The position numbers and the translations under genes were made by a program. From positions 1 to 56,774 of the forward strand of contig JAUNFY010000011.1 of NCBI GenBank assembly GCA_030524805.1: 56,774 bases of DNA, given 5' to 3'. This DNA is from Bacteroidales bacterium (lineage in GTDB: Bacteria > Bacteroidota > Bacteroidia > Bacteroidales > Muribaculaceae). The first letter of the stretch is position 1. The number at the start of each line of letters is the position of its first letter. The notes below the pieces were generated by a model that was not told the DNA's origin, searched no databases, and saw nothing but the letters and a program-made list of their open reading frames with translations. Shown here in pieces: positions 38,413 through 55,913 of the stretch.

Positions 38413-40128
38413 ATGAAAACCAAGATTCTACTTGCCATGATGTGGCTGCTTTCCGCAGCGGGACTGCATGCCGCGACATTCCGAAACCCCGTCATCAACG
38501 CCGACGCGCCCGACATCAGCGTCTGCAAGGTTGCCGACACATACTATATGGTCAGCACCACCATGCACCTCATGCCCGGTGCCCCTATCATGAAGTCGAC
38601 CGACATGGTGAACTGGGAGACCATCAGCTACGTATTCGACCGCATCGACGACGGCGACCGCTACGACCTCATTGACGGACAGACCGTCTACGGACAGGGC
38701 CAGTGGGCCTCCAGCATACGCTACCACATGGGAAAATTCTACGTCTGGTTCACCGCCAACGGTGCTCCCGGCAAAGGGTTTGTTTTCTGCGCCGACAAGG
38801 CCGAGGGGCCATGGAAACTTGTGGCCCGCCCGCCCCACATGCACGATGCCTCGCTCTTTTTCGACGAGGACGGCAAGCGCTATCTCTTCACCGGCAGCGG
38901 AAGCTGCACCGTGGTGGAACTCGACGAGAACTTCAATCCCTTGCAAGGGGGGCTCAACAAGAAGGTGGTCGATGGCAGCACCGACCCCGACGAGCGCGGC
39001 GCACTGCTTGAGGGCAGCAGCGTGGTGAAGCACAACGGCAAATACTACATCTGCATGATTTCCATGAAATGGGGAGTCGACGGCCGCGTGCGCCGCGAGG
39101 TGTGCTACCGCGCTGACAACATCGCGGGCCCCTACGAGAAGAAAATCATACTCGAGACTCCCTTTGAGTCTTACGGCGGAGTGGGACAGGGATGCCTCGT
39201 GGGCGACGACCAAAGCGACCTCGGATGGTGGGCGCTCATCTTCCAGGACCGCGGCGGCATCGGACGCGTGCCCTGCGCGCTGCCCGTCACATGGATCGAG
39301 GGATGGCCTATGGTGGGAGAGTTCACCGGTGAAATCAACACCGCCATAGCGGAATGCAAGGCCGACAATCCTTCGGGCAATATTCGCCTCGATCGCCGTG
39401 CCTACCGCACCCCCTCCGACCTCAGCCTGCGCCACCCCTCCGTGCAGGGAATAATCGGCAGCGATGAATTCGACCTCCTCCCACTGAATCCGGAAGGTGC
39501 CTACCACGACCGTACCGGCCTCAGCAAATACTGGCAATGGAACCACAACCCCATCGACGAGGCATGGAGCCTTACCGACCGCCCGGGATTCCTGCGCCTG
39601 ACGACCGCAAGGGTTGTAGACAACATCAACGTCGCGCCCAACACCCTCACCCAACGCATGGCGGCACCGCTCTGCAGCGGTGCCGTCAAGATCGATGTTG
39701 CCAACATGAAGGATGGCGATATATGCGGGCTGGCGGCCTTCAACGGCGACAGCGGAGTAGCGCGGATTGTGCGGAAAGGGAAACGATTCTTCCTTCAGCT
39801 CACTGAGGAGAAAGCCGTATTCAAGGCACCCCGCGACATTGAGCGCGTCGACGTGACGATTCTGAAGGAAGTACCTCTTAAATTCAGCAGGAAGTCGGGC
39901 TCCGAAGTATATCTGAAAGTCAACGGCGACTTCAATCCCGGACGCGACATGGCTTCATTCTCCTACAGCCTCGACGGCGACAACTGGACCGACCTGGGGC
40001 ATGAGATACCGATGCGCTTCGACTACACCCGCCACTTCATGGGCACGAAGTTCGCCATTTTCAACTACGCCACCCGCTCCACAGGGGGCTACATCGACGT
40101 CGATTGGTTCCGCTTCGAGCAACTGTGA
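38413..40128 (+). CDS. GH43 family arabinofuranosidase/xylosidase
   Basis: A 571-residue secreted enzyme; the signal peptide ends near LHA. The N-terminal five-bladed propeller (about 20-320) has the GH43 catalytic set: base Asp in NADAPDISV (about 35), modulator Asp in HMHDASLFFDEDGKRYLFTG (about 157) and general acid Glu in LLEGSSVVKHNGKYYI (about 200). The C-terminal part (about 350-571) is the concanavalin-like beta-xylosidase C-terminal domain (YWQWNHNPIDEAWSL, MRFDYTRHFMGTKFAIFNYATRSTGGYIDVDWFRFE). This layout fits subfamily 12-like enzymes on arabinose or xylose side chains. It converges with the GH105-type gene, whose stop is 18 bases away. Confidence 0.9.
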   Translation: MKTKILLAMMWLLSAAGLHAATFRNPVINADAPDISVCKVADTYYMVSTTMHLMPGAPIMKSTDMVNWETISYVFDRIDDGDRYDLIDGQTVYGQGQWASSIRYHMGKFYVWFTANGAPGKGFVFCADKAEGPWKLVARPPHMHDASLFFDEDGKRYLFTGSGSCTVVELDENFNPLQGGLNKKVVDGSTDPDERGALLEGSSVVKHNGKYYICMISMKWGVDGRVRREVCYRADNIAGPYEKKIILETPFESYGGVGQGCLVGDDQSDLGWWALIFQDRGGIGRVPCALPVTWIEGWPMVGEFTGEINTAIAECKADNPSGNIRLDRRAYRTPSDLSLRHPSVQGIIGSDEFDLLPLNPEGAYHDRTGLSKYWQWNHNPIDEAWSLTDRPGFLRLTTARVVDNINVAPNTLTQRMAAPLCSGAVKIDVANMKDGDICGLAAFNGDSGVARIVRKGKRFFLQLTEEKAVFKAPRDIERVDVTILKEVPLKFSRKSGSEVYLKVNGDFNPGRDMASFSYSLDGDNWTDLGHEIPMRFDYTRHFMGTKFAIFNYATRSTGGYIDVDWFRFEQL

Positions 40129-49145: not shown

Positions 49146-49775
49146 TCAGAATTTGAAGCTGCATGCGAGCCCGGCCTCCGTGTCGGTGGCAACAGGCACT
49201 ATCGCCACCTCATGCTTCTTCATGTAGGGATGGGTGAAGATGAACGACGATGCCGCCCCGATGGCGGCTCCCGCCGCCACATCCCACCAATGATGCTTCT
49301 TTCCGTAGACCCGTCCCCATGCCGTATAGGTCGACAGGGCGTAGGCCGGTATCGAATATTTCCACCCATAGCGTTTGCCGATGAATGTGGCGGCGGCAAA
49401 CGTCACCGAGGCATGCCCCGACGGAAACGAATGGCGGTTGCTCATGTCGGGGCGGTTTTCTTTCACCGAATATTTCAATATCATGGTAGCCCCGATCGTG
49501 ACTCCGGCCGAGATGGCGCCTTCCTTCAGCCCCTCCCAGTCCTGCTTTATCAAGGTAGTGGCAAGCGCGGCTGCCGGCAAAGCCACGAGTATCACGTCGG
49601 TCGATGTGCGCACCGCTTTCTGACCCCTCGAGGGAGTGAACGCGCCTGCAGCATCTTCGCCGAAGGCCGCCACCGGCATCAGCACCACAAGCAACATGAT
49701 AATCAGGGAGCGACGGAACGCGCAGTCTTTCTTCCGCTCTTTTTCTTTTTTATTGTCTCGTTTGTCGTTCGACAT
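49146..49775 (-). CDS. PAP2 family phosphatase
   Basis: A 209-residue protein. The lysine-rich N-terminus (about 1-22) is followed by one signal-like helix, then three PAP2 motifs: KYSVKENRP (about 105), SFPSGHASVTFAAA (about 118) and RVYGKKHHWWDVAAG (about 155). It probably removes phosphate from lipid pyrophosphates or lipid A in the periplasm or inner membrane. It is divergent from the steroid reductase operon and converges with the aldo/keto reductase. Confidence 0.9.
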   Translation of the reverse strand: MSNDKRDNKKEKERKKDCAFRRSLIIMLLVVLMPVAAFGEDAAGAFTPSRGQKAVRTSTDVILVALPAAALATTLIKQDWEGLKEGAISAGVTIGATMILKYSVKENRPDMSNRHSFPSGHASVTFAAATFIGKRYGWKYSIPAYALSTYTAWGRVYGKKHHWWDVAAGAAIGAASSFIFTHPYMKKHEVAIVPVATDTEAGLACSFKF

Positions 49776-49776
49776 T

Positions 49777-49807
49777 TTGCAGATTCCGTTTAAAATTTGT
49801 AATTTTG
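49777..49807 (+). promoter_or_regulatory. Promoter of the steroid reductase operon
   Basis: TTG at 49777-49779, 20 bases, and TAATTTTG at 49800-49807. The ATG at 49877 leaves a leader of about 60 bases. Confidence 0.65.
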
Positions 49808-49876: not shown

Positions 49877-50656
49877 ATGAACGGAATTTTCGACCCCTTG
49901 GTTTTCCACTCTGTGGAATATATAATGATAGCGCTGGCTGCCATTGTCTTCGTATGCCTGCTCTTCATCAGCCCCGGCTACGGGATGTTCTACAACCGCA
50001 AGTGGGGTCCCTCGCTGAGCAACCGCCTCGGCTGGATCCTCATGGAGGCGCCGGTGCTTGTCTGCCTCCTCGCCATCTGGCTCTCGTCGCCACGCAGGGC
50101 GCAGACCACGCTCATCATCATGATGGCGCCCGTAGTGATACATTATCTGCAGCGCACCCTCATCTTCCCGCTCCTCATCAAGGGCTCCAACCGCATGCCG
50201 GTGGCCATAATGCTGATGGGCGTGATATTCAATGTCGTCAACGCCTATCTCATCGGCGGCTGGCTCTTCTACATGTCGCCTGCATCGGCCTATCCCCTGT
50301 CGTGGCTCGCCGACCCGAGGTTCCTCATCGGCACCGCGATCTTCATAGCCGGAATGGTCATCAACATCCATTCCGACCACGTAATCCGCCATCTGCGCGC
50401 CCCGGGCGACCGGCGCCACTACATCCCCCACGGCGGAATGTTCCGCTACGTCTCCTCGGCCAACTATTTCGGTGAGGTCACCGAGTGGGTTGGTTTCGCC
50501 ATTCTCACATGGTCGCTCCCCGGATTAATCTTCGCCCTCTGGACCTTCGCCAACCTCGGCCCCAGGGCCCGCTCCACTTATAAAAGATATGCCGCCGAAT
50601 TCGGCGACGAGTTCACACGTCTGAAACGCAAATATATCATCCCCTACCTATGGTGA
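49877..50656 (+). CDS. 3-oxo-5-alpha-steroid 4-dehydrogenase family reductase
   Basis: A 259-residue membrane protein with about six to seven helices. The C-terminal half has the steroid 5-alpha-reductase signature: GTAIFIAGMVINIHSDHVIRHLR, YIPHGGMFRYVSSANYFGEVTEWVGF (conserved NYFGE in the NADPH/steroid pocket), and the ending LKRKYIIPYLW. The N-terminal half (GPSLSNRLGWILMEAP, VIHYLQRTLIFPL) also fits SRD5A1-type enzymes. It reduces a delta4 double bond of a 3-oxo steroid to the 5-alpha product with NADPH. The next gene starts seven bases before its stop. A start at 49805 would place the N-terminus on the promoter. Confidence 0.87.
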   Translation: MNGIFDPLVFHSVEYIMIALAAIVFVCLLFISPGYGMFYNRKWGPSLSNRLGWILMEAPVLVCLLAIWLSSPRRAQTTLIIMMAPVVIHYLQRTLIFPLLIKGSNRMPVAIMLMGVIFNVVNAYLIGGWLFYMSPASAYPLSWLADPRFLIGTAIFIAGMVINIHSDHVIRHLRAPGDRRHYIPHGGMFRYVSSANYFGEVTEWVGFAILTWSLPGLIFALWTFANLGPRARSTYKRYAAEFGDEFTRLKRKYIIPYLW

Positions 50657-51882
50657 CCAATCTCGACAATCTATTCACTCCCGGCAAGATAGGCCCGGTA
50701 GAGCTTCGCAACCGTTCCATCAGAAGCGCTGCGTTCGAAGGAATGGGACGCGACAACAACCCCACCGATATGCTCCGCGACTATCACTGGAGCGTGGCCG
50801 AGGGTGGCGTCGGCATGACCACTCTTGCCTACGCCGGAATAAACCGCTCGGCACTCTCTTTCGAGACCCAGCTCTGGCTGCGCCCGGAAATAACGGGACA
50901 GCTCCGCGAAATCACCGACGGCATACATGCCCGCGGCGCCAAGGCCTCGATTCAGATTGGCCACTGCGGCAACATGACACATATCAAGACCGCCGGCGGC
51001 ATACCCGTAGGCGCGTCGTCGGGGTTCAATCTTTATTCCCCCACCATAGTGAGAGGTCTGCGCAAGGATGAGCTCACACAGATGGCCCGCGATTTCGGAG
51101 ACGCCGTGCGCACCGCCCGCGATGCGGGCTTCGACTGCGTTGAGGTGCATGCCGGACACGGCTACCTCATATCACAGTTCCTTTCGCCTTTCACCAACCG
51201 CCGCCGCGATGAGTTCGGCGGCCCGCTCGCCAACCGCATGCGCTTCATGCAGATGGTGATGGAGGAAGTGATGAAAGCGGCCGGAAGCGACATGGGAGTG
51301 CTCGTAAAGACCAACATGCGCGATGGATTCAAGGGAGGTCTCGAGATCGACGACTGCATCACGGTGGCCCGCGAGCTCGAGAGGCTCGGCGCACACGCGC
51401 TCGTGCTGAGCGGCGGGTTCGTGAGCAAGGCTCCCATGTATGTGATGCGGGGCGAGATGCCAATCTATTCCATGACCCACTACATGAAGCTGTGGTGGCT
51501 CAAATATGGTGTGCGCATGGTGGGCAAATACATGATTCCCACCGAGCCCTTCCGCCCGCTCTATTTCCTCGACGATGCACGCCGTTTCCGCGCCGAACTT
51601 TCGCTGCCGCTCGTATATGTAGGCGGCGTTGTCGACGGCGAATCGATGTCGAATGCTCTCTCCGAGGGGTTTGAGTTCGTGCAGATGGGACGCGCCCTTC
51701 TCCGCGAACCCGACTTCATCAACCGCCTCGCCCGCGAAGCGTCCCACCATTGCGGATGCGAGCATATCAACTATTGCATCGCCCGCATGTATAGCCGCGA
51801 GATGGCTTGCCACTGCAACGTGCCCGACCTCCCGCCCCGCATACTGAAAGAAATCGACGGAATACGCCGTCGCAACAAATAG
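50650..51882 (+). CDS. NADH:flavin oxidoreductase (old yellow enzyme family)
   Basis: A 410-residue flavoenzyme with a TIM-barrel OYE core: LFTPGKIGPVELRNRSIRSAAFEGMG, IQIGHCGNM, the FDCVEVHAGHGYLISQFLSPFTNRRRDEFGG signature (substrate His-x-x-H region), and PLVYVGGV / FVQMGRALLREPDF for FMN phosphate. A C-terminal cysteine cluster (HHCGCEHINYCIARM, MACHCNVPD) resembles the iron-sulfur motif of the longer 2,4-dienoyl-CoA reductase/BaiCD/BaiH group, although the NAD-binding half of those enzymes is absent. It overlaps the 5-alpha-reductase gene by seven bases. By context it is probably a 3-oxo-delta4-steroid reductase of 5-beta type. Confidence 0.88.
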   Translation: MVTNLDNLFTPGKIGPVELRNRSIRSAAFEGMGRDNNPTDMLRDYHWSVAEGGVGMTTLAYAGINRSALSFETQLWLRPEITGQLREITDGIHARGAKASIQIGHCGNMTHIKTAGGIPVGASSGFNLYSPTIVRGLRKDELTQMARDFGDAVRTARDAGFDCVEVHAGHGYLISQFLSPFTNRRRDEFGGPLANRMRFMQMVMEEVMKAAGSDMGVLVKTNMRDGFKGGLEIDDCITVARELERLGAHALVLSGGFVSKAPMYVMRGEMPIYSMTHYMKLWWLKYGVRMVGKYMIPTEPFRPLYFLDDARRFRAELSLPLVYVGGVVDGESMSNALSEGFEFVQMGRALLREPDFINRLAREASHHCGCEHINYCIARMYSREMACHCNVPDLPPRILKEIDGIRRRNK

Positions 51883-51898
51883 ATCCACGACCGACACG

Positions 51899-52714
51899 AT
51901 GAAAACGACGAAGACCAACGAACTGCAGGGAAAATGGGCTCTCATCACCGGCGCCGACGGAGGCATCGGCCTCGAGCTCTGCCGCGCCCTCGCGCGACGC
52001 GGATGCTCGCTCGTGATGCTGAGCATCACTACCGATGCCCTCCGCAAGGCCGCACGCGACATTGAGTCGGAGTTTTCCGTCGGGGCGCTCCCTCTCACCA
52101 TCGACCTCACCGACCCGCACGCAATGTCGATCATCGCGGCCTTCCTGCTCAACCGCGGCATCGAGATCGACATACTTGTCAACAATGCCGGCATATTCAG
52201 TTTCAAGCCTTTGGCCGACACGCCCGACGACAAGATCAACCGTTTCGTCGACCTCCATGTGCGCGCCACCACTACCCTCTCCACCTACTTCGCGCGCCGA
52301 TTCCGCGAAAGGCGCTCGGGCCGCATCCTCAACATGTCGTCGATGTCCTGCTGGATGCCGATGCCGGGGCTGGCTCTCTATGCCTCCACCAAGGCCTACA
52401 TACGCGTGCTGTCGCGTTCGCTCCACTATGAACTGAAGGATTATGGAGCGTCGGTCACCGTGGCCACTCCCGGCGGCATCGCCACCGACCTCTTCGGCCT
52501 CCCTGCCAACCTGAAGCGGCTGGCGCTCACCCTGCATGCCATCGAGGCCCCCGACTCGTTCGCCGAGAAGGCCGTGAAAGCCATGCTCAAAGGCAAGAAA
52601 CAATATATCAACGGGTTTATCAATCGGCTCGCCATAGTGTTTGTGGCCATCATGCCCACTCCGGTGCGCATGCTCGTGAAGCGGAAGTTGCTCGACAAGG
52701 GCATCTGCCGATAG
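51899..52714 (+). CDS. Short-chain dehydrogenase/reductase
   Basis: A 271-residue classical SDR: cofactor loop TGADGGIG (about 18-25), NNAG (about 96-99), catalytic Ser in NMSSMSCW and YASTK (about 162-166), with a C-terminal hydrophobic segment (FINRLAIVFVAIMPTPVRML, about 240-260) suggesting membrane contact. In this operon, 17 bases after the OYE gene, a 3-ketosteroid (3-beta-hydroxysteroid) dehydrogenase role is likely; sequence alone gives only SDR. It probably completes reduction of a 3-oxo steroid to a 3-hydroxy product. Confidence 0.87.
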   Translation: MKTTKTNELQGKWALITGADGGIGLELCRALARRGCSLVMLSITTDALRKAARDIESEFSVGALPLTIDLTDPHAMSIIAAFLLNRGIEIDILVNNAGIFSFKPLADTPDDKINRFVDLHVRATTTLSTYFARRFRERRSGRILNMSSMSCWMPMPGLALYASTKAYIRVLSRSLHYELKDYGASVTVATPGGIATDLFGLPANLKRLALTLHAIEAPDSFAEKAVKAMLKGKKQYINGFINRLAIVFVAIMPTPVRMLVKRKLLDKGICR

Positions 52715-52757: not shown

Positions 52758-55700
52758 ATGTCGATGATCCTATCCCACCGCCGCAACCTCCTCCGCCTCG
52801 TCTTCCCGCTCATTACGTTTCTGGCGTCGCTCGCCACTTATTGGGCCACTGTCGATCCGGGGCCCTCTTATTGGGACTGCCCTGAATATCTCATCACTGC
52901 CCTGCGCCTTGAGGTGGGCCACCCGCCGGGCAATCCGGGGTGGGCACTCACCCATCGCGTGGCTACAGCACTGTTTTCCTCTCCCGAAACCCAAACCCTT
53001 GCCGTCAACCTCATGTCGGGGCTTTTCACCGCCCTGGCCTCGATGCTGCTCTGCATCGTGGGCATGTCGGCCATGCGCCTGATATGGAATCCGAGGCGCC
53101 ACACGCGCTGGCGGCGGCTGGCTATTGGCTTCGCTTCCTGCGCCGGCGCGCTATGTTTCGCATGGTCCGACTCCGCATGGTATAGCGCGGTGGAGGCGGA
53201 AGTCTACGCCATGTCGCTGTTCCTGTCGGCGCTCACCGTGTGGATGGCTCTCAAGTGGGCTTTTTCCTTCTCGCGGGCGGCCCGGATGCGGTGTCTCGTG
53301 GCGATAGCCTACATCATAGGCTTCTCGCTCGGAGTGCATCAGCTCAACCTGCTGGCGCTCCCGGCCATAGCGCTGGTGATGGCTGCCGGAGTGAGAAGCT
53401 GGAAGTCGCATCTTGTGCTCCGCCGCTCGGCGGCGTTTGTCGCGGCCTGCATCGCAGTGGTGGTCATACTCAAAGGCATCATGCCCGGTGCCGTGGCTCT
53501 GGCATCACGCGCCGACGTTTTCTGCGTTAATTCTCTTGGCTGGCCCTATTGGGCGGGTGCCATAGCGGCATGGAGCCTCGCGCTCGCCGTGGCGGTGGCG
53601 CTCGCCATTACCGTTTGCCACAGCCATCCCAAGTCGGGCACCGCCCTGTGGTGTCTGGCAGCCGTGATGACCGGCTATTGCATCTATATCCTGATTCCGC
53701 TGCGCGCATGGGCCAATCCTCCTGTCAACGAGGGCGACCCCTCTTCGCCGGGGCGACTGATCGATTATCTCGACCGCCGGCAATATGGCGGCGCCCCTCT
53801 CTTCTATGGCCGCACGCCGTATAGCCGCATCATGAGGCTGGAGAGGATGTCGGTGTCGGAAAGCGGCGACACCGCCTACGATTATTCCTGGAATGCCCTG
53901 AAAGTCGTAGGCCGCGACCTCAGGCCGATGGTGCGCGGCGGACACATACCGGAGCGGAGCCGCTTCCTCTCAGATGCCGACAGGTGCCTCAACCGACGCC
54001 TCGCGGCCGACAGCGCAGCCCGAGGATATGCCGTGACCGGCTTCCGCACCGAACCCATATATACGCCCGAGCTCAACATGCTCCTCCCTCGCATACATTC
54101 ATCGTCGCCGGCCGACATGCCGGCTTACCGCGACTGGACGGGCATGGATTCCTCCAACATGGTCAGCGTGCTCATCTCGGAAGCCATCGACAGCATGGGG
54201 CGCCCGGTGCCGATGCGCGATGCTGCGGGAAATCCGATGCGCCGCCATGAGCTGCGCCCTTCCTATCTGCAGTCGCTTTCCTACCTGATGGGTTATCAGA
54301 CCGGCTACATGTATCTGCGCTATCTGATGTGGAACTTCTCAGGGCGACAGAACGACGTGCCCGCTTCGGGCGAGATCGACCATGGCAATTTCATCACAGG
54401 CCTGCCGCTCGCTGACGACCTCATGCTCGGCCCGCAGTCAGCTCTCCCGGCGGAAATTGGCCGCGACAACGAGGGCTACAACCGATATTGGGCCATCCCC
54501 TTCCTGCTCGGCATCGTGGGCCTCGTGTGGCTTTTCGCCGGCAACGGACCTGCGCTGTCGCGCCCTGCCATGCGCGCGACGGCATGGACCTCGCTCGTGC
54601 TGATGCTGATGACTGGGGTAGCCATCGTGGGCTATCTCAACCAGACGCCGGGCGAGCCCCGCGAACGCGACTACACTTTCCTCATGAGTTATTGGTCGTT
54701 TGCCCTGTGGATTGCGATGGGGATGCTCCTGCTGCTCTTCGCCGCGCGACGCCAATGGATGCGCATCGCGGCAATGGTCGTCTCCGCCGCAGTGCCCCTC
54801 TGGATGCTCGCCCAGAACTGGGGCGACCACGACCGCAGCCACCGCAGCGCTACCCTCGACTACGCCGCCAACCTGCTTGAATCGCTCGACAAGGATGCCA
54901 TCATCTTCGTGGATGGCGACAACTATATCTTCCCGCTATGGTATGCGCAGGAAGTGATGGGAATGCGCCCCGACGTGTCGGTGGTGTGCAATTCTTTCCT
55001 TTCATGCGACTGGTATCTGCCTCAGCTCATGACTCCCGGCCCGGGCAACGACGGAGTGGCCATGACGGCCGACGTGGCCGACGTGGCCATGGGCAACTAC
55101 AATATGGTGCGGATGCCGGGGGCTGTCTCCGACACCCTCGACGCCGTAGAGGCGCTCCGCAACATTTATGCCGACATGTCGCCCACCCCGCAGTTCTCCC
55201 ACCGCTGGCTCACGATGGGCTCAGGCGATTCGCGATGGGTGTTCGACCTCCTGTCGATGCCCGGCAAATCGGCCAACTCCATCGCGTCGCTGAAGGAAGT
55301 GGCCATGATCGACATTATCGCCACCAATGCCGCATCGCGCTATCCGCGGCCCGTATATTGGCAGCAGGATCTTCCCCGCAACAAGTATCTCGGCTTCTTC
55401 CCCTACTCCCGCCAGGCCCTCTTCGCGCGCCGCCTCATGCCCGATGCGCCCGACTCGCTCGTGCTCACCGGCGAAGCCCTCCGCTCACTCCCCGCATTAC
55501 GATGGGGAGGCACCGACCGCATGCCCTACCCCGGACCCGACGTCATCGCGCAGGCACAGCTCCAGCGGGCATCGCTCATAAGGCTCGCCGAAGCCATGGC
55601 GCACGACCAACGCCACGACCAGGCTCTCCACATAGCACACATGGCGATGGTGCGCTTCCCCGAAAATGTCATACCCTTCGGCATCCGCAATCATTGCGAC

Positions 55701-55913
55701 AGCGCCTACTTCGAAGCCCGCCATCTCGCAGCCCTGCTCATCACCGGCGGCAAAGCCCGGCGCGACACCGCAGCCATATCGGAAGGCAACCGCCTCCTGC
55801 GCGACGACTCCATCCGCACCGCAGCCTACCGCCGCTACCGCCAGGCCATCCCCCCGCACCGCCGAGGAGCCATCTCCCCGAAAACCAACAACCAGACGAT
55901 CCTCCCCAAATAA
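52758..55913 (+). CDS. DUF2723 membrane protein (glycosyltransferase-like)
   Basis: A 1051-residue protein. Residues about 10-180 form DUF2723, with the signature DPGPSYWDCPEYLITALRLEVGHPPGNPGW, where acidic residues of the first loop are as in GT-C mannosyltransferases. About a dozen membrane helices follow (to about 340 and again about 585-690), with periplasmic parts between, and a large C-terminal soluble part (IFVDGDNYIFPLWYAQEVMGMRPDVSVV). This layout is common across Bacteroidota. The proposed role is transfer of sugars to exported proteins. It starts 44 bases after the SDR, so it may be co-transcribed with the steroid operon without sharing its function. Confidence 0.88.
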   Translation: MSMILSHRRNLLRLVFPLITFLASLATYWATVDPGPSYWDCPEYLITALRLEVGHPPGNPGWALTHRVATALFSSPETQTLAVNLMSGLFTALASMLLCIVGMSAMRLIWNPRRHTRWRRLAIGFASCAGALCFAWSDSAWYSAVEAEVYAMSLFLSALTVWMALKWAFSFSRAARMRCLVAIAYIIGFSLGVHQLNLLALPAIALVMAAGVRSWKSHLVLRRSAAFVAACIAVVVILKGIMPGAVALASRADVFCVNSLGWPYWAGAIAAWSLALAVAVALAITVCHSHPKSGTALWCLAAVMTGYCIYILIPLRAWANPPVNEGDPSSPGRLIDYLDRRQYGGAPLFYGRTPYSRIMRLERMSVSESGDTAYDYSWNALKVVGRDLRPMVRGGHIPERSRFLSDADRCLNRRLAADSAARGYAVTGFRTEPIYTPELNMLLPRIHSSSPADMPAYRDWTGMDSSNMVSVLISEAIDSMGRPVPMRDAAGNPMRRHELRPSYLQSLSYLMGYQTGYMYLRYLMWNFSGRQNDVPASGEIDHGNFITGLPLADDLMLGPQSALPAEIGRDNEGYNRYWAIPFLLGIVGLVWLFAGNGPALSRPAMRATAWTSLVLMLMTGVAIVGYLNQTPGEPRERDYTFLMSYWSFALWIAMGMLLLLFAARRQWMRIAAMVVSAAVPLWMLAQNWGDHDRSHRSATLDYAANLLESLDKDAIIFVDGDNYIFPLWYAQEVMGMRPDVSVVCNSFLSCDWYLPQLMTPGPGNDGVAMTADVADVAMGNYNMVRMPGAVSDTLDAVEALRNIYADMSPTPQFSHRWLTMGSGDSRWVFDLLSMPGKSANSIASLKEVAMIDIIATNAASRYPRPVYWQQDLPRNKYLGFFPYSRQALFARRLMPDAPDSLVLTGEALRSLPALRWGGTDRMPYPGPDVIAQAQLQRASLIRLAEAMAHDQRHDQALHIAHMAMVRFPENVIPFGIRNHCDSAYFEARHLAALLITGGKARRDTAAISEGNRLLRDDSIRTAAYRRYRQAIPPHRRGAISPKTNNQTILPK

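Follow-up and report, generated by a model that had tools for sequence, protein, structure and literature searches.

A conserved three-gene operon in gut Muribaculaceae that probably remodels the A/B ring of 3-oxo steroids from the host

Background

In Parabacteroides merdae, the gene for a steroid 5-alpha-reductase is clustered with genes for a predicted 3-beta-hydroxysteroid dehydrogenase (3-beta-HSDH) and for an NADH:flavin oxidoreductase hypothesised to be a 5-beta-reductase. Disruption of the 5-alpha-reductase stops formation of allolithocholic acid (alloLCA) derivatives, and several strains convert 5-beta acids to isoalloLCA, as summarised in a review (PMC10382948). Here, we describe a locus on a contig of a Bacteroidales bacterium of the family Muribaculaceae (JAUNFY010000011.1, assembly GCA_030524805.1). 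The window is this whole contig, 56,774 nucleotides (nt) of a 95% complete genome of 2.9 Mb, and the three genes in question encode an SRD5A-type membrane steroid 5-alpha-reductase (5AR), a stand-alone flavin mononucleotide (FMN) oxidoreductase of the old yellow enzyme (OYE) family and a short-chain dehydrogenase (SDR).

The 5-alpha-reductase activity reported in the review covers Parabacteroides (P. merdae), Odoribacter (Odoribacter laneus) and Bacteroides (PMC10382948); the precedent that a preliminary description of the locus had named for Parabacteroides and Odoribacter relatives is thus published, and includes Bacteroides too. Among related flavoenzymes, BaiCD has reportedly been assigned both an oxidative and a reductive step, and the OYE and flavin adenine dinucleotide (FAD)/NAD parts can be separate proteins, as the same review states citing a BilR paper (PMC11574389).

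Results and discussion

A compact operon conserved across Bacteroidales

All three genes were found where the preliminary description had placed them, adjacent on the plus strand (Table 1), and their products matched Pfam Steroid_dh (E 3.9e-45; 154 bits, gathering score 22.6), Oxidored_FMN (E 1.4e-49) and adh_short (E 7.1e-42), respectively. The 5AR gene starts with the ATG at 49877 and its stop codon occupies 50654-50656, so that it overlaps the OYE gene by 7 nt, and a gap of 16 nt separates the OYE and SDR genes, which bears out the close packing described earlier. The proposal of a single promoter also agreed with the data. A Bacteroidales-type promoter match lies in the 101 nt divergent region upstream of the 5AR gene, and a scan of the gaps within the trio and of the gap behind the SDR gene gave no plus-strand terminator-like site. 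One weak plus-strand match was located inside the OYE gene (51656-51668), and such matches are common by chance. The general pattern, TTTG-N16-24-TANNTTTG, which we take to reflect the Bacteroidales promoter consensus, occurred seven times in the window (19251-49807) compared to 1.23 expected, and none of 100 shuffles reached seven; such matches would fit Bacteroidales promoters at other places in the window.

The linkage of the three genes was surveyed in 247 Bacteroidales genomes, using cut-offs of E 1e-30 for 5AR, E 1e-60 for the OYE and E 1e-45 for the window-type SDR. The 5AR was detected in 51 genomes, the OYE in 38 and the window-type SDR in 22. Four of the OYE matches (G111, G192, G215 and G238; 37-41% identity) are distant and were set apart as an outgroup, leaving 34 genomes in the OYE clade. 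All 34 also have a 5AR, which lies directly upstream of the OYE gene in 25, while the window-type SDR lies directly downstream in 19 and both genes are so placed in 15. The survey of synteny suggested in the preliminary description thus revealed a conserved operon. Within the genus of the window's bacterium, the 5AR was present in 32 of 37 genomes (its own included), several of the others being incomplete, and the trio was contiguous in 14 of 15 longer loci, with approximately 1.1 kb between the OYE and SDR genes in the remaining one (L046).

A wider set, the best 80 of 589 loci, gave a similar picture. The 5AR was adjacent to the OYE gene in 64, an SDR of either of two types described below in 61 and both in 50; for the 72 loci readable on both sides, both were adjacent in 46. 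Clustering of the neighbouring open reading frames (ORFs) in these 80 loci recovered the OYE 73 times, the 5AR 55 times and the SDR 53 times, and no other neighbour family came near this level, the next reaching 13. The OYE is carried, among others, by Parabacteroides, Bacteroides, Alistipes, Coprobacter and numerous metagenome-assembled genomes (MAGs) from gut and rumen.

The trio is therefore real and conserved, and probably an A/B-ring remodelling operon of the kind already published. We consider it probable that its substrates in gut Muribaculaceae are 3-oxo steroids of host origin, with bile acids the likeliest; substrate and direction are inferred from the published work on relatives. 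Isomerisation of the A/B ring is the best reading, since the make-up of the window operon matches that of the reviewed P. merdae cluster. In this scheme, the OYE would interconvert a 3-oxo-5-beta steroid and the 3-oxo-delta-4 enone on its FMN, exchanging electrons with a partner and running oxidatively or reversibly, as reported for BaiCD. The 5AR would use NADPH to reduce this enone on its alpha face, yielding a flat 3-oxo-5-alpha steroid, after which the SDR would reduce the 3-keto group. The net outcome would be conversion of a bent 5-beta into a flat 5-alpha steroid with its 3-hydroxyl set.

Alternatively, the 5AR and the OYE could work in parallel, both reducing 3-oxo-delta-4 steroids, to 5-alpha and 5-beta products, respectively, as an electron sink or for detoxification, with the SDR reducing the 3-keto group. 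All three proteins do belong to reductase families, and the clostridial OYE ci2350 reduces progesterone to its 5-beta product (PMC11722256). However, a relay appears to account more readily for a conserved pair of opposite stereochemistry, adjacent in 25 of the 34 genomes. In addition, the OYE lacks an NAD(P)H/FAD domain, and the conversion described for Bacteroidota strains runs from 5-beta to 5-alpha acids (PMC10382948). We therefore prefer the relay from 5-beta via delta-4 to 5-alpha and regard parallel reduction as a rather unlikely alternative.

As to the substrate, a choloylglycine-hydrolase-family gene (E 1e-20 cut-off) was found in 19 of the 34 OYE genomes and in 19 of the 213 others, the window's own genome having one; the Fisher p value of 1.6e-9 is uncorrected for kinship or gut lifestyle and is given little weight. 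The same chemistry could be directed at neutral sterols, or at phytosterol ketones from the diet (cholestenone, for example), as the sequences do not fix the side chain of the substrate, which is a gap rather than positive evidence. This seems quite improbable, since the reported Bacteroidota activity is on bile acids (PMC10382948) and the clostridial OYE 5-beta-reductase was inactive on cholest-4-en-3-one (PMC11722256).

The 5AR keeps the catalytic dyad of SRD5A enzymes

The 5AR was the only match to PF02544 in the whole genome, and its nearest solved structures are PbSRD5A (7c83; E 2.3e-53, 39% identity over aligned columns) and human SRD5A2 (7bw1; E 1.2e-40, 38%), in line with the SRD5A-type identity proposed for it. 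Residues were counted in 125 distinct 5ARs of 235-300 amino acids, drawn from the retrieved loci and so including few of the more distant 5ARs that occur without an OYE. The equivalents of E57 and Y91, the catalytic Glu and Tyr of SRD5A2, are kept in all 125, the window protein included, and seven of the eight named NADPH residues are kept in the window 5AR, each being present in 122 to 125 of the 125. The H231 equivalent is Thr in the window protein and Ile, Leu, Thr, Val or Ser across the set; the assayed human variants all lost activity significantly, except H231A (PMC7815742).

The equivalent of Q56 is Met in all 125 sequences, again including the window protein, so that the "QEY" motif reads "MEY". 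In the structural study, Q56, E57 and Y91 form the signature, QEY is conserved in the 5-alpha-reductases considered there, and the human mutants Q56A/L, E57L and Y91F lose activity (PMC7815742). Membership of the SRD5A family, which in Pfam does not need the Gln, stands for the window protein on its sequence, but confidence that it works like SRD5A2 is lowered by the Met. This residue is probably tolerated, since 5AR activity has been reported for strains of Bacteroidota.

A stand-alone OYE that lacks one of the canonical cluster cysteines

The OYE consists of the OYE domain alone, with no FAD/NAD domain recognised by Pfam or NCBIfam, and scored 166 bits against the BaiCD model NF041087, whose cut-off is 825. 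The preliminary description was thus right to separate this single-domain protein from BaiCD, and an identification as BaiCD was rejected on account of this score, the missing NADH/FAD domain and the presence of three of the four cluster cysteines. Its role as a 5-beta-reductase, also put forward there, is not established, as the review gives the corresponding assignment in P. merdae as hypothesised (PMC10382948).

Residue counts were made on 138 distinct OYE sequences of at least 390 amino acids, obtained from 192 matching loci after short, X-containing and duplicate sequences had been dropped; 68 of them come from the 80 best loci, and many of the 138 are close kin. His167, His170 and Tyr172, presumably the usual enone-binding His pair and proton-donor Tyr, are invariant in all 138. 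The "BaiCD-like cysteine cluster" of the preliminary description exists as a region, but only three of its four canonical cysteines are there. Cys370, Cys376 and Cys387, which correspond to the first, third and fourth, are present in all 138 sequences, while the second, at position 373, is absent in 137 and replaced by Ile373 in the window protein. In the aligned region, E. coli FadH has cysteines 335, 338, 342 and 354, which we take to bind its iron–sulfur (Fe–S) cluster, and the four outgroup OYEs (L204-L207) display the motif C-x2-C-N-x-C-x10-C.

The sole sequence with Cys373, and thus with all four Fe–S cysteines, is a Saprospiraceae protein (L193). In a midpoint-rooted tree of 71 of the 138 sequences and the four outgroups, it formed the first branch inside the operon clade (clade support 100/100; the rest 92/96), although its place is unsure given a long branch, odd composition and the midpoint root. 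The window OYE grouped with other Muribaculaceae (support 100/99). As only this first branch keeps Cys373, the gut OYE clade seems to have dispensed with one Fe–S ligand at an early stage.

Whether His372 substitutes for the lost ligand was considered. Position 372 is His in 130 of the 138 sequences, Arg in four, Cys in two (L070 and L072), Asn in one and Thr in one. The two sequences with Cys372, which branch next after the Saprospiraceae protein (pair support 87/50), speak for a ligand at this position, as does an extra cysteine at 388-391 in every one of the five sequences that lack His and Cys at 372 as well as Cys373. The latter argument is weakened by the occurrence of this extra cysteine in 62 of the 130 sequences with His372 as well. 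Moreover, three of the four outgroup proteins have His at the equivalent of 372 next to a normal cysteine, so that His372 may be ancestral, and a role as substitute ligand was not accepted as shown. A PDB profile search with the C-terminal region gave no FadH or TMADH among the 60 best matches listed. A limited search of partly accessible literature on OYEs and iron–sulfur clusters found no mention of the lost cysteine, which is weak evidence of novelty.

Three of the OYE loci deserve separate mention. At L182:8001-9215 the OYE frame carries an in-frame stop, possibly a broken gene or an assembly error, and this sequence was left out of the alignment. The Saprospiraceae MAG holds an OYE and an SDR with no 5AR found beside them, and is possibly an early form of the operon before gain of the 5AR. 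At L204:2342-4083 (genome G111, family f75), a distant 5AR (42% identity) overlaps an upstream Epimerase/3Beta_HSD gene (PF01073, E 9.4e-25), which is a different 5AR partnership; the outgroup OYE of this locus, with the canonical four-cysteine motif, lies approximately 9 kb from the 5AR.

Two SDR subfamilies occupy the third slot

The third-slot SDRs were compared in a set of 60, comprising the window protein and 59 of the 61 loci with an adjacent SDR, two being too short and dropped. The catalytic Ser148, Tyr161 and Lys165 are each present in all 60, and the sequences fall into two subfamilies. Type 1 (37 sequences, the window SDR included) is found in Muribaculaceae, Alistipes, P. distasonis An897 and others, and type 2 (23 sequences) in Bacteroides, P. 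massiliensis, Coprobacter and others, with a mean identity of 24% to the window SDR. When searched against the window genome, the P. massiliensis type 2 SDR matched the window SDR best, though the similarity is weak (26%, E 9.2e-8). Two loci (L149:6471-10024 and L166:6465-10027) carry both types, with the 5AR-OYE pair flanked directly by a type 1 SDR on its upstream (5AR) side and by a type 2 SDR on its downstream (OYE) side; their presence in one locus suggests that the two SDRs do different jobs.

The solved structures matching the window SDR, among the 60 best listed of 617, are generic SDRs, with one 7-alpha-HSDH at E 3.4e-20; those of the OYE are likewise generic members of a large superfamily. 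Best matches in non-steroid families, which the preliminary description named as evidence against its reading, did not emerge for the 5AR, and the comparison is uninformative for the OYE and the SDR because of these generic matches. The assignment of the SDR as a 3-beta-HSDH, also made in that description, is not established, since a protein of a different subfamily from that in the Bacteroides and P. massiliensis operons does not inherit the 3-beta assignment by orthology. Judged by its sequence, the window SDR is a putative 3-oxo-steroid reductase that could give either a 3-alpha or a 3-beta product.

Weighing the A/B-ring reading

Several observations weigh against remodelling of the A/B ring as proposed. 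The kinship to the studied P. merdae cluster rests on P. massiliensis and other Bacteroidales, as P. merdae itself does not appear among the 80 best loci, and the window SDR is of the other subfamily than its P. massiliensis and Bacteroides counterparts. The 5AR occurs without the OYE in 14 of the 247 genomes and, in 9 of the 34 OYE genomes, is not its neighbour; the two are thus able to function separately. The operon is also patchy in its distribution: the genome of L067 (G141) encodes an OYE 95% identical to that of P. massiliensis, and in its family the OYE was found in 14 of 59 genomes (10 of 11 in its own genus, 4 of 48 elsewhere). Finally, the exchange of Gln for Met in the 5AR, at a position where the Ala and Leu mutants of the human enzyme lost activity, and the absent second cysteine of the OYE could mean altered chemistry.

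A bolder version of the proposed isomerisation, which we think unlikely, is that the OYE lineage, lacking the NADH/FAD domain and the second cysteine, arose from a BaiCD/FadH-like reductase and became a 5-beta-steroid dehydrogenase that stands alone and holds its cluster on three Cys and perhaps His (C-x-H-x3-C-x10-C), the operon being a redox-balanced ring isomerase whose product is decided by the SDR subfamily. If so, these changes would shift the potential of the OYE, and electrons from 5-beta steroids would pass to a ferredoxin- or flavodoxin-type carrier. The SDR subfamily in the third slot would then decide, lineage by lineage, between allo (3-alpha) and iso-allo (3-beta) products.

Neighbouring genes

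Table 1. Features of the operon and its flanks in the window (aa, amino acids)
Feature	Coordinates	Strand	Length or position	Basis
5AR, SRD5A-type membrane steroid 5-alpha-reductase	49877..50656	+	259 aa	ORF + Pfam PF02544
Stand-alone OYE-family FMN oxidoreductase, putative 5-beta-reductase/dehydrogenase	50650..51882	+	410 aa	PF00724
SDR, type 1 third-slot short-chain dehydrogenase, putative 3-oxo-steroid reductase	51899..52714	+	271 aa	PF00106
OYE C-terminal three-cysteine motif (Cys370, Cys376, Cys387, with His372)	51757..51810	+		alignment
Promoter match TTTG-N20-TAATTTTG, Bacteroidales-type	49776..49807	+		pattern match
TMEM260-like protein	52758..55913	+	43 nt after SDR	PF11028
PAP2 phosphatase gene, divergent	49146..49775	-	upstream of 5AR	ORF + Pfam

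The TMEM260-like gene starts so close behind the SDR gene (Table 1) that it may be a fourth co-transcribed gene at this locus. Together with the divergent PAP2 phosphatase gene, it invites a non-steroid explanation, in which the 5AR would reduce a polyprenyl substrate in the manner of SRD5A3, described as converting polyprenol into dolichol (PMC7815742), and would act with the SDR, as in dolichol synthesis, to feed a TMEM260-like O-mannosyltransferase, the OYE helping on the same substrate. However, a TMEM260-like gene follows the SDR gene in 7 of the genus's 15 longer loci, at 822 nt in one and within 600 nt in six, among them one with a 3 nt overlap. Of the 80 best loci, 2 show this arrangement, and one of these (L163) shares its contig with L038, a member of the set of 15. 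The closest solved homologues of the 5AR are, moreover, steroid 5-alpha-reductases, a comparison in which SRD5A3 was not included. A polyprenol role is hence highly improbable, and the TMEM260-like gene was rejected as a conserved partner of the trio. The PAP2 gene was rejected likewise, lying beside the trio in 3 of 20 loci (L031-L050) and in 2 of the 80 best.

The PAP2 gene is preceded by an alpha/beta hydrolase-like ORF and an aldo/keto reductase gene (PF00248; 46828-49059), neither of which was found beside the trio in the same 20 loci at the cut-off used. Farther away, at 38413-40128, the window encodes a GH43 family beta-xylosidase-like protein (PF04616 and PF17851).

Significance

Bile acids of the flat 5-alpha form, isoalloLCA among them, are described as inhibiting Gram-positive pathogens including C. 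difficile (PMC10382948) and as promoting regulatory T cells (PMC11271093). Given the prevalence of the 5AR in the genus and its presence in Muribaculaceae relatives, the Muribaculaceae are a candidate producer of such acids, and a limited literature search for them in this role found nothing apparently on topic. The relatives share the missing Fe–S cysteine, the Met of the altered QEY motif and the split into two SDR types; the first and the last of these features bear on the direction and the stereochemistry of the reaction.

Comparison with known systems

The window locus resembles the P. merdae-type cluster in that the same three gene families are clustered. As at the P. massiliensis locus and at the majority of Bacteroides loci, the 5AR gene lies directly upstream of the OYE gene. 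Identities to the P. massiliensis proteins are 52% for the 5AR and 62% for the OYE, whereas the SDR differs in subfamily from those of the P. massiliensis and Bacteroides operons. With PbSRD5A and human SRD5A2 the 5AR shares the E57/Y91 dyad and seven of eight NADPH residues, and it departs from them in its Met for Q56 and Thr for H231. The OYE has the barrel and the C-terminal cysteine cluster region of the two-domain Fe–S flavoenzymes BaiCD and FadH, but lacks their FAD/NAD domain and has three, not four, cluster cysteines. By description, it is also like the clostridial steroid 5-beta-reductase ci2350, an OYE-family enzyme acting on 3-oxo-delta-4 steroids that has been modelled on FadH (1PS9) and BaiCD (PMC11722256).

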